Shown here: positions 32,999 through 42,850 of the stretch, in pieces | How positions within the stretch are numbered: position 1 is the stretch's first letter | Layout of the letters: every line of letters starts with the position of its first letter | Made by a program: the position numbers and the translations under genes | The notes under the pieces: generated by a model | What the model was told of the DNA's origin: nothing | The model's database searches: none | Seen by the model: only the letters and a program-made list of their open reading frames with translations | Origin: Armatimonadetes bacterium Uphvl-Ar1 | GTDB lineage: Bacteria > Armatimonadota > Fimbriimonadia > Fimbriimonadales > Fimbriimonadaceae | NCBI GenBank assembly: GCA_002162075.1 | Contig: CP021423.1 | Span: 682,001 to 746,000 of the forward strand | DNA length: 64,000 bases | Direction of reading: 5' to 3'

Positions 32999-33355
32999 AT
33001 GAGCTTTAAAGTGGAGAGTATAGCGGCGATGGTTCCCTCCACCGATTTGGAAAGATCAGTTGGATTTTTGGTTGATAGGTTGGGTTTTGAGTTAGTGTTT
33101 TCAACTGAAACGTACTGCATTTTGGTTCGAGATGGGTTTGAGTTTCATTTGCAACGAGCGGGTGAAGGCGTTGGGCAGATAGCAATTTATATTAAGGTTG
33201 ATGACGTTGAGGCAGTATGGGACCGTTTACAGGGCCATTTGGACGGGATTCGGCACAAGGCTCCGTTTGACCAGGAGTACCAGATGCGGGAAATCCATGT
33301 TGATCTTCCTTCGACTCAGGCTTCGTTCTTTATCGGTCAGCCGATTGGTGATTAG
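32999..33355 (+). CDS. VOC-family (glyoxalase/bleomycin-resistance fold) protein
   Basis: A 118-residue single vicinal-oxygen-chelate module. The typical layout is visible: VPSTDLERSVGFLVDRLGFEL in the first half, FEFHLQRA, then IAIYIKVDDVEAVWDRL and a final strand VDLPSTQASFFIGQP. Such proteins bind metals or small hydrophobic ligands as lyases, dioxygenases or resistance proteins. The substrate is unknown. Its 3' end overlaps the convergent HNH gene by 4 bp, within the duplicated ppdK/HNH junction. Confidence 0.85.
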   Translation: MSFKVESIAAMVPSTDLERSVGFLVDRLGFELVFSTETYCILVRDGFEFHLQRAGEGVGQIAIYIKVDDVEAVWDRLQGHLDGIRHKAPFDQEYQMREIHVDLPSTQASFFIGQPIGD

Positions 33356-33888
33356 TTCACTGTTTTTTGTTGAAACTCTTTGAAGATGGGGAGGTAGTAC
33401 GCCCATTGTTCTTTTTCGATGGCGGTCATGTAGGATTGGAGGCTAAGGTACGGGACGTAATGGGGTTGTTTTGGCTGCTTTTTGAGTTTCATGCCAGCTT
33501 GGAGCGGGGTTTTGTCGGCTTTTTTGAGGTTGCATTTACGACAGCAGGTGACGAGGTTTTCCCATGTGTGGGGGCCGCCGCACCAACGCGGGACAACGTG
33601 GTCGAGGGTGAGGTCGCGGGTTGACCCGCAGTATTGGCATTCGTAGTTATCGCGAGCGAGGATGCTGTGGCGGGAGAGACGCAACCGAGGTAGTGGGCGC
33701 TTGACTTGGTAGCGCATTCGGACGACGGACGGCATGGTGTGTTCGCCGGCGAAAGTTTTGTATTCTCGCCCCGCATCTTCGATGATTTCGGCTTTGCCGA
33801 GGATGAGGAGCGTGACGGCACGCCTGAGGTTGCAGACGTTCAGCGGCTCATAGTTGGCGTTGAGCAGAAGGACTTCATGTTTGGCCAT
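33352..33888 (-). CDS. HNH endonuclease family protein
   Basis: A 178-residue protein. N-terminal VLLLNANYEPLNVCNLRRA followed by the HNH core: CQYCGSTRDLTLDHVVPR near residue 82 and ENLVTCCRKCNLKKADKTP near 110. The four cysteines (CxxC twice) hold a structural zinc, and the DHVVPR His with the later Asn build the metal site. This is the common stand-alone housekeeping HNH type of unknown physiological role. The ATG at 33888 has GAGGTG upstream; a longer upstream frame lacks homology-like features. A decayed copy of its 3' end lies at 32770. Confidence 0.92.
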   Translation of the reverse strand: MAKHEVLLLNANYEPLNVCNLRRAVTLLILGKAEIIEDAGREYKTFAGEHTMPSVVRMRYQVKRPLPRLRLSRHSILARDNYECQYCGSTRDLTLDHVVPRWCGGPHTWENLVTCCRKCNLKKADKTPLQAGMKLKKQPKQPHYVPYLSLQSYMTAIEKEQWAYYLPIFKEFQQKTVN

Positions 33889-33929
33889 TGGGTTCACCTC
33901 GTTCGATGGGGGTTTGCGGGTTCTGGTAC

Positions 33930-34035
33930 AAAAAAACCCGCGTGTCTCACCGAAACGCGGGTTGGAGTGACACCAAGACGTTGGTGTATTAGGGTGTCGA
34001 ATTGAGTCGGAGGACACCCGCAATGTTTCACCAAG
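33930..34035 (-). ncRNA. Candidate structured RNA or attenuator with three hairpins
   Basis: Read on the minus strand, three hairpins follow each other: GGGTGTC/GACACCC (34019-34013 with 33998-33992), ACACCAA/TTGGTGT (33987-33981 with 33976-33970) and AACCCGCG/CGCGGGTT (33963-33956 with 33942-33935), the last running into seven T. This is a terminator 42 bp upstream of the HNH start. It may be a small RNA or a leader that attenuates the HNH gene. No known family is recognised, and no clear promoter was found in the remaining gap to murA. Confidence 0.45.
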
Positions 34036-34246
34036 TTCTGATCGCAAACTTGCATCACTTGCTATTAAAACGGATTTCCCGAATGTTTTGGCGCAGTTTT
34101 TTTCATCTCTTAACAAAAAAATTGATTTCGGGTGGAATTTGCGGGTGAGCATCCTTTGCCCGAGGCATAACGTCCGGTAAAATGCGCAGGTTAATCGGCT
34201 GGGTGTGCCTGGTTGGTTGTAACGCCATGGATGGTGAGTGACTGAG

Positions 34247-35539
34247 ATGAATGTTTTGCGAATTGAGGGTGGACGACCTTTGCGGGGGTCGGTTGACATT
34301 GCGGGCAGCAAGAATGCGGCTTTGGCGATTTTGGCATCTGTGCCCTTGGTGGATGGCACGGTAGTTTTGACCAATGTGCCGGAGATTAGTGACATTCACA
34401 TCAAGTTGAATTTGCTTCGGCGGTTGGGGGTGGAGTCGGAGTTTCGGGAAGGAACGCTTTTTATTGATACCAAAGGCTTGAAAGCGGCGGAGCTTCCGGA
34501 GGAAGAAGTCCGGAAAATTCGGACGGGGTTTTATATGTTGGGGCCGTTGCTTATGCGGCTGGGATCAATTTCGTTGCCGATGCCGGGGGGATGCAAAATT
34601 GGGGCCCGTCCAGTTGATTTTCACTTGAAAGGGCTTCGGGCACTTGGGGCAACTATTGAAACTTTATCGGGGAACTATGTGGCGAATTCGACAGGGGTCG
34701 AAGGGACGGAGATTTATCTGGATGCTCCGAGTGCAGGGGCGACTCAGCATTTGCTTGCAACGGCAACGCTTGTTCCGGGTCATACGGTGATTCAAAATGC
34801 TTCGATTGAGCCGGAAGTCGTGAGCTTGGCGGGCTTTTTGCAATCGGCGGGGGCGAAGATTGAAGGTGCGGGTACGAGCACGATTACGGTAACGGGAGTT
34901 GAGAAACTCACAGATTGTCGGTATTCGGTGCCAGCCGACCGGATGCAGGCGGGGACTTATTTGCTTGCGGCGGCGATCACGGGGGGAGACGTTACTGCGC
35001 GGGGAATTTTGCCCGAAGAACAGACGGCATTGGTGAATAAGCTCCGGGAAGCGGGCTTTTTTGCTGAAGAGGGTAACGATTGGGTGCGCGTTTGGGCGGA
35101 AGGCCGAGGCCGGGGAATCCGGGTCAAGACAATGCCCTATCCTGGGTTTCCAACTGATATTCAGCAGCCGATGGCAGCGGTGCTGGCGTTGGCAGATGGT
35201 CCAAGCTCGATTGAAGAGACGATCTATGAGAGTCGGATTGGTCATATTTCTGAGCTAGAGCGGATGGGGGCAAATGTCCGGGTTGAAGGGCGATCGACTT
35301 TGATTGAAGGCGTTAAGCAATTGCAAGGTGCGGTTGTCGAGGCGAGCGATTTGCGGGCAGGGGCGGCTTTGTGTTTGGCGGCGTTTGCGGCAAGTGGCGA
35401 GACGGTGATCCGGAATGTGATCTATATTGATCGTGGCTACCAGGATTTGGAAAAGAACTTTACGCAACTGGGTGGCAAGATTGAACGTTTGAGTGAAGAG
35501 GAGTGGGCTCGTCAAAGCGAGTCTGTAGAGCAGAAATAA
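34247..35539 (+). CDS. murA: UDP-N-acetylglucosamine 1-carboxyvinyltransferase
   Basis: Catalyses the first committed step of peptidoglycan synthesis, adding enolpyruvate from PEP to UDP-GlcNAc. About 430 residues with the inside-out alpha/beta barrel blocks [12 protein letters not shown] at the N-terminus, [15 protein letters not shown] with the catalytic cysteine at residue 116, and [13 protein letters not shown] near residue 300. The cysteine predicts fosfomycin binding. I chose ATG 34247 over GTG 34238. It is followed one base after its stop by mreB, an arrangement common in diderm bacteria. Confidence 0.97.
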
Positions 35540-42675: not shown

Positions 42676-42727
42676 TTTTTGGTTTCCTATGCTCGTAGGG
42701 GTTGGCCTATTGAGTTGTTGTTTTGAA

Positions 42728-42850
42728 GCGCGGCAGGCATTCGGACTTCTCGTTTGAGTTGAGTTACCGTTGCGGCACAGTGCCGGATTTTCACCGGTCT
42801 TCCCCTGTTCGCCTTTTGTGAGGCGCGCGATCCACGACAGATCGCTCGGG
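42728..42850 (-). promoter_or_regulatory. Cobalamin (B12) riboswitch
   Basis: Read on the minus strand, the core is almost consensus: AACAGGGGAAGACCGGTGAA, then AATCCGGCACTGTGCCGCAA and CGGTAACTC, followed by the closing GAGAAGTCCGAATGCCTGCC element near 42735-42754. A GCCTCACAAAAGGC hairpin precedes the core. About 50 bases separate the aptamer end from the ATG of the prepilin-like gene, enough for a translational or terminator-type expression platform, which I could not resolve. Confidence 0.93.

Follow-up and report, generated by a model that had tools for sequence, protein, structure and literature searches.

A conserved leader frame running through a covarying terminator upstream of an HNH endonuclease gene in Armatimonadota: a probable leader-peptide attenuator

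The DNA directly upstream of a gene for a small HNH endonuclease in Armatimonadetes bacterium Uphvl-Ar1 carries a short open reading frame, which runs through an intrinsic terminator and ends at the start of the nuclease gene, and the conservation of this arrangement among relatives suggests that the element is probably a leader-peptide transcription attenuator of the HNH gene. The window, i.e. the whole stretch of 64,000 nucleotides that was analyzed, belongs to a genome of 2.99 Mb in a single contig, and the features under discussion are the following:

33352..33888, minus strand: HNH endonuclease gene, 178 aa, presumed to be the regulated gene (Pfam HNH_5 and HNH)
33894..34055, minus strand: leader ORF, 53 codons plus TGA, MQVCDQNLVKHCGCPPTQFDTLIHQRLGVTPTRVSVRHAGFFVPEPANPHRTR (frame and codon tests)
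33987..34013, minus strand: conserved motif PPTQFDTLI, family consensus PPxWxDTIIR (alignment of family leaders)
33987..33989, minus strand: rare AUA codon conserved in the family, 26 nt before the terminator stem and preceded here by a rare CTA
34019-33992, minus strand: hairpin 1, GGGTGTC/GACACCC, overlapping motif codons
33987-33970, minus strand: hairpin 2 (spacer), ACACCAA/TTGGTGT
33963-33935, minus strand: hairpin 3, continuing into T7 at 33936-33930
33930..33963, minus strand: hairpin 3 with its U-tract, an intrinsic terminator within the leader ORF (hairpin call, fixed-offset z, covariation)
34064..34069, minus strand: candidate -10 box TTTAAT, 8 nt before the leader ATG, 5/6 to TATAAT

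The leader frame and its distribution

An earlier note on this DNA had described three consecutive stems with a U-tract end as an RNA explained by no gene. The stems are located where it had placed them, with the end of the U-tract 42 nt from the ATG of the HNH gene (33888) on the same strand; the statement that no gene accounts for them was mistaken, as the 53-codon frame covers the stretch but is too short for the ORF list, which starts at 60 aa, a reminder that ORFs of fewer than 60 codons can hide within apparent RNA structures. In the window, the leader stop overlaps the Shine–Dalgarno-like AGGTGA of the HNH gene, an in-frame GTG immediately precedes the leader ATG, and the encoded peptide reads MQVCDQNLVKHCGCPPTQFDTLI..., with MTKRAPSRYLCHPPTWADTIIR... 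as an example from a relative.

Related leaders are found directly 5′ of the same HNH gene at 51 of 55 loci in the window's family and at 25 of 27 loci in sister families, which together form the set of 76 HNH-linked loci used here. The motif frames of the 51 family leaders were assigned via general patterns in 36 cases and, in the other 15, via patterns written after those sequences had been read. At L098, L099, and L115, which come from one genus, the leader frame is open and the motif is changed to RPGFYI, and L083, a family locus without an assigned motif, carries a diverged leader. The 27 sister-family loci show RWxTGxW at the same place in 24 cases and a variant assigned by eye at L073, with no leader motif found at L114 and L117; an intermediate form, RWSAHWADTMIR, is present in G038. 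At L058 the leader frame runs through the terminator, and in other classes of the phylum leaders were seen by eye only, those of L103 and L105 stopping before the terminator.

A family profile built from 17 leaders was searched against 61 genomes, 37 of them from the window's family, and at E <1e-4 it matched 19 genomes once each, always adjoining HNH; 11 of these 19 had contributed to the profile, with which divergent leaders score close to chance. Rows near an E of 0.003 in G061 and G030 fall away from HNH, and a candidate for a second leader copy in G023 did not stand up to inspection. The corresponding sister profile (12 leaders) matched 24 of 101 genomes at E <1e-10, none of them from the window's family; 23 of these matches adjoin HNH, and in the remaining genome, G087, no HNH gene was found. 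A DNA similarity search returned convincing matches in G006 and G007 only, the weaker ones being at chance level.

That this short conserved leader is probably translated is suggested by the way in which its codons change. Around the motif, the differences at codon positions 1/2/3 number 33/28/66 in the family and 23/19/60 in the sister families (11 independent pairs in each), and synonymous changes make up 41 of the 90 changed codons in frame as compared with 6/83 and 6/78 off frame in the family, the sister families giving 40/75 in frame against 7/74 and 20/70. Downstream of the motif, there is no third-position excess in the family (41/43/34, 4 pairs) and a slight one in the sister families (24/20/29, 6 pairs).

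The frame itself stays open to ≤25 nt from HNH at 72 of the 76 loci, five near-identical rows being included in this test, as compared with 34 and 46 for the other two frames and with 43.3 ± 4.0 (maximum 55/76) for shuffles; an early leader stop is seen at 4 of the 76. A hairpin was called upstream of HNH at 73 of these loci, of which 57 were kept for counting stops, with 11 sister-family calls omitted as non-credible and the doubtful L202 retained by rule; L033, L037, L047, L065, and L075 were dropped as near-identical in this and most other counts and retained in the openness test and in the 49/51 and 7/291 AUA counts given below. Across these 57 loci, leader-frame stops amount to 1 in 1025 codons from the motif to the stem (off frame, 44/1006 and 19/989), 3/677 in the stem region (8/671 and 7/676), and 5/365 from the terminator to HNH (16/366 and 10/364), and then to 46/470 across the HNH start (15/480 and 12/475). 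No in-frame stop precedes the end of the terminator in 53 of the 57 leaders, and the first leader stop falls between -12 and +12 of the HNH start at 42 of them. In 15 of these 42, the stop is at +11 and thus within HNH, and conserved Asp/Glu codons of the nuclease may help to create it; the other 27 are spread over all three HNH-relative frames. Taken together, the codon-position and the frame and stop tests indicate selection on the peptide up to the motif, followed mainly by an open frame through the terminator and a stop at HNH.

The same counts bear on a rather improbable alternative, according to which the leader would encode a functional small protein, translated from a non-stop mRNA in the manner of arfA/brfA, with HNH as a separate gene and the terminator serving tmRNA control. 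As described for arfA/brfA (PMC8012679), the terminator precedes the stop codon in those genes, too, so that the terminated transcript would be non-stop, a likeness to which the 53/57 leaders without an in-frame stop before the terminator end contribute, and the N-terminal peptide is under selection. However, a stand-alone gene needs neither a frame that is open past the terminator nor stops that favor the HNH start (46 vs 15 and 12), and the ORF here, unlike arfA/brfA, reaches the beginning of the following gene and remains associated with it. NCBIfam holds no match to the leader, and its strong profile matches adjoin HNH, except in the one genome without HNH found.

The terminator and the two upstream stems

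The 121-nt RNA of the window is more stably folded than its dinucleotide shuffles, with a z of -2.67 and one equally good fold among 200 shuffles, and its minimum-energy fold contains hairpins 1 and 3 and omits hairpin 2, the CACCAA of which pairs instead with a TTGGTG farther upstream. A strong fold of the plus strand (z -4.19) was set aside as being largely a mirror of the minus-strand stems. Rfam gave no gathering-level match at the element and, at E up to 5 over 33700-34400, three chance-level matches, none of them to the minus-strand hairpins. A simple promoter/terminator scan reported no terminator and no minus-strand promoter here; its stem rules miss hairpin 3, and its result was therefore counted neither way.

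Conservation was measured in 20 genomes including the window's by a fixed-offset test, in which 36-nt windows were placed from the leader motif with no hairpin selection. The mean z at the terminator is -5.75, with all 20 genomes below -1, and 14 of 14 terminator pairs show compensatory change among 44 family rows (L059 and L081 left out), with 88.1% of cells paired, values which none of 500 shuffles reach. It has to be noted that a hairpin search supplied these rows and thereby inflates the pairing, a bias of which the fixed-offset z is free. For hairpin 1, the mean z in the 20 genomes is -1.8 with the dinucleotide shuffle and -0.87 with the synonymous-codon shuffle, under which 4 of the 20 fall below 5%. 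It yields no consensus fold, its paired cells being 57.9% and 49.0% in two registers, and these two registers along with the consensus folding rule it out as a fixed conserved RNA fold; it may in part be a by-product of Pro and Trp codons, and it could also be an RNA polymerase pause hairpin. At the hairpin 2 offsets, the mean z lies between -0.5 and 0.3, i.e. this stem is not conserved in the relatives.

Of the three-stem RNA in the earlier note, hairpin 3 holds up well, since the comparison of relatives proposed there finds compensatory changes in it, whereas hairpin 2 gives no signal and hairpin 1 no conserved fold. The note's suggestion of a new, non-coding small RNA, which would consist of the three hairpins, can appeal to the fact that the stems exist, to the better-than-shuffled folding, and to the short terminated RNA that is predicted, but the frame, stop, and codon-position tests point to a conserved short ORF spanning the hairpins, and the state of hairpins 1 and 2 and the lack of an Rfam match likewise make this reading very improbable. 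The note's other suggestion, attenuation of the HNH gene by a leader, is in agreement with the data, a covarying terminator sitting between the conserved leader start and HNH.

A strict terminator search covering 220 nt upstream of HNH detected a terminator at 63 of 86 Armatimonadota loci. A second, partly overlapping set comprised the best 80 of at least 589 named HNH loci and, consisting of the best-scoring ones, is not a random sample; here, a terminator was found at 16 of the 24 loci titled Armatimonadota, related names, or plain 'bacterium' (L118-L138, L141, L154, and L158) and at 3 of the remaining 56, from Chloroflexota, Cyanobacteria, and other groups; one of these three is the unplaced 'Bacterium HR28'. 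Of these three terminators only that of L160 is close to HNH. At this locus (Chloroflexi), it lies 21 nt before the gene, and a possible short leader, VDNILLHIPWLCC, was noticed by eye.

The AUA codon and the proposed attenuation

An in-frame AUA is found 22-37 nt before the stem in 49 of the 51 motif-bearing family leaders (observed range 24-36), or in 44 of 46 when near-identical loci are removed. All 36 leaders from the general patterns have it, and the two that lack it, L045 and L057, were both assigned by eye. Within that interval, the isoleucine codons of the family leaders comprise 52 AUA, 7 AUC, and 0 AUU, and 4 of 46 leaders contain an ATA out of frame. AUA accounts for 7 of the 291 isoleucine codons in the HNH genes at the same loci and for 33 of 712 in 24 long stop-to-stop ORFs from the window, which makes it the second rarest sense codon there. 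The leaders are rich in AUA elsewhere, too (18 AUA, 21 AUC, and 8 AUU), so that only the pre-terminator AUA stands at a near-fixed place, its spacing to the stem being 29 ± 2.5 nt in the family, with 42.5 ± 23.3 nt from the stem to HNH. The RPGFYI leaders of L098, L099, and L115 likewise retain an AUA in frame, which, judged by eye, is roughly as far from the stem. The L083 leader is without this AUA, and in the sister RWSTGSWF leaders no AUA was seen by eye at a common place in the motif region; being absent from these as well as from L045 and L057, the AUA cannot be the whole mechanism. A loss of AUA decoding was also considered and rejected, as TilS, which makes the AUA-reading tRNA, scores above its cut-off in 59 of 61 genomes, and the codon is probably decoded normally.

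The probable start of the transcript can be placed from sequence statistics. Over 71 loci, hexamers with at least 5/6 identity to TATAAT occur 27 times at the 8 offsets that lie 4-11 nt 5′ of the leader start and 9 times at the 32 other offsets tested, and a Shine–Dalgarno-like sequence precedes 4 of 71 leader starts vs 58 of 71 HNH starts. No -35 box was identified upstream of the leader in the window. The -10-like boxes at this distance and the scarcity of Shine–Dalgarno sequences suggest a near-leaderless transcript, whose 5′ end probably coincides with the leader start codon or lies no more than a few bases away from it.

In the attenuator proposed here, a promoter just upstream would give rise to an RNA beginning at or very near the leader start codon, and a ribosome would translate the leader, pass the motif (PPxWxDT-Ile in most of the family), and reach the AUA about 29 nt before the stem, where it would halt owing to the codon and probably to the nascent peptide as well. 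Should this pause outlast the time that the polymerase needs to form the hairpin, transcription would terminate and leave an RNA of about 125 nt lacking the leader stop codon. A ribosome that keeps up, because the polymerase is slow or the decoding fast, would instead cover the terminator stem, read on in the open frame, and stop at the HNH ribosome-binding site or start, allowing HNH to be transcribed and translated, a coupling to which the frame geometry of the loci points.

With a simulated ribosome at the AUA, the terminator has a mean probability of 0.926 in 45 genomes, exceeding 0.8 in 41 of the 45 with the AUA masked and in 38 without masking; a simulated ribosome on the stem abolishes it, by construction. 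Since the terminator still forms with a ribosome at the AUA, a pause there should favor termination, although the chances that such a pause turns HNH off are put at about even. This direction agrees with the effect of proline runs at the E. coli pyrL terminator (PMC5021804), where placing such a run ahead of the terminator reduced expression 26-fold in an efp mutant and less than 2-fold in wild-type cells. Even with no stall motif present, the pyrL hairpin lowered the reporter about 18-fold. In the window, the terminator stem starts 92 nt after the leader ATG, and E. coli terminators located no more than 100 bp into a coding region were nearly unimpaired, translation lowering them by ~10% (PMC4824070). 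Together, these distances and data imply that read-through needs polymerase pausing, for which the sole candidate, hairpin 1, is weakly conserved. The default state would probably be OFF, with read-through when the polymerase is slow or decoding is fast; as for the signal sensed, the best guesses are the speed of the polymerase or the decoding of AUA.

A more detailed version of the attenuator is offered tentatively, and it is somewhat doubtful that all of it holds: an arrest peptide of a new class (W-x-D-T and variants) would slow isoleucine incorporation specifically at the single AUA, which is decoded by a lysidine-modified tRNA, and the pause would clock the polymerase and set the expression of HNH in the family, with the sister families using another peptide (RWSTGSWF) in the same device.

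The opposite outcome of a stall, HNH being turned ON, would result from antitermination, in which a ribosome halted at the AUA or the motif by a shortage of isoleucine or tRNA-Ile2 or by an antibiotic frees an arm that pairs with the 5′ arm of the terminator. An arrest-like conserved motif at near-fixed spacing to the terminator would suit such a mechanism, and in the window the 5′ arm of hairpin 1 and the preceding bases can pair with the terminator arm (z -2.1). Across 45 loci (L059 left out), however, the pairing is barely above that of shuffles (mean z -0.13 to -0.43 for four upstream segments), cognate arms do no better than the arms of other genomes, and the high terminator probability with a masked ribosome at the AUA also speaks against it, making antitermination an unlikely reading.

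The HNH protein and known systems

The HNH gene was found in 96 of 101 genomes including its own, with weak or partial matches in two of them (G020 and G057). Below the curated cut-offs, the encoded protein is similar to the HNH domains of IscB and Cas9d: it scores 63.4 bits against guided_IscB of NCBIfam (cut-off 175). A PDB profile match to TbaIscB has an E of 8.3e-15, and no match to RuvC was obtained in Pfam and NCBIfam scans of the 178-aa protein. RRXRR, the N-terminal family of IscB, is matched weakly by 4 of 10 relatives (best E 0.0067), and the protein possibly has an IscB-like N-terminus and is possibly IshB-like.

The guide RNA of IscB is encoded upstream of the IscB gene. By analogy, the element might be an omega-RNA-like guide for the HNH protein, and what the two systems have in common is a similar HNH domain, an element immediately 5′ of the gene, and possibly the type of N-terminus; the resemblance to guided_IscB and TbaIscB and the weak RRXRR matches are what would commend this idea. 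It differs from IscB/OMEGA, however, in that the protein has only 178 aa and no RuvC match, the upstream element is coding, and a single chromosomal leader copy is present, no second strong one having been found in the genomes searched. A terminator is, furthermore, rare before the HNH gene in other phyla, and with no Rfam match at the element a guide RNA is extremely improbable. IshB-like proteins are named in PMC12477157.

For a leader-peptide attenuator, two types of precedent are relevant. In E. coli pyrBI, the leader ORF spans an intrinsic terminator and ends near the structural gene. In attenuators of the trp/his/ilv type, a leader ORF with regulatory codons and a terminator precede the structural gene. 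The element shares with pyrBI a leader frame that is open across the terminator (53/57) and ends close to the start of the structural gene (42/57), and it differs from pyrBI in being near-leaderless, in its conserved peptide motif and rare AUA, and in the HNH nuclease gene downstream. Its geometry is closer to the E. coli pyrBI attenuator than to trp-type antitermination. With the trp/his/ilv type and with Salmonella mgtP (PMC3641672), it has in common the leader ORF, the terminator before the structural gene, and regulatory codons, but no antiterminator was detected here, there is no run of a single amino acid, and the terminator lies within the ORF, which extends beyond it. In the pyr leader, termination is inhibited by a ribosome advancing toward the terminator (PMC5021804).

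In the open-licence literature, nothing was found on an HNH endonuclease with leader-peptide attenuation, which does not by itself establish that none is in print, and among the papers listed there for AUA codons and leader-peptide attenuation, none is listed as dealing with a leader of this kind. If the proposal is correct, it would provide a natural attenuator with one strongly conserved rare codon, rather than an amino-acid run, at a near-fixed distance from the terminator family-wide, in which an arrest-like peptide differs between families while the terminator and gene order persist. It would also be a test bed for ribosome pausing vs polymerase speed and give a first clue to the control of a protein present in nearly all genomes searched and resembling the HNH part of IscB and Cas9.

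Two minor observations were made alongside. Elsewhere in the window, at 42727-42815 on the minus strand, there is a match to the AdoCbl-II cobalamin riboswitch of 37 bits (gathering score 36.5). At L138 and L110, from other Armatimonadota, different Trp-containing leader peptides, IWPPKPTI and VWDSYF, respectively, were seen by eye before the terminator.
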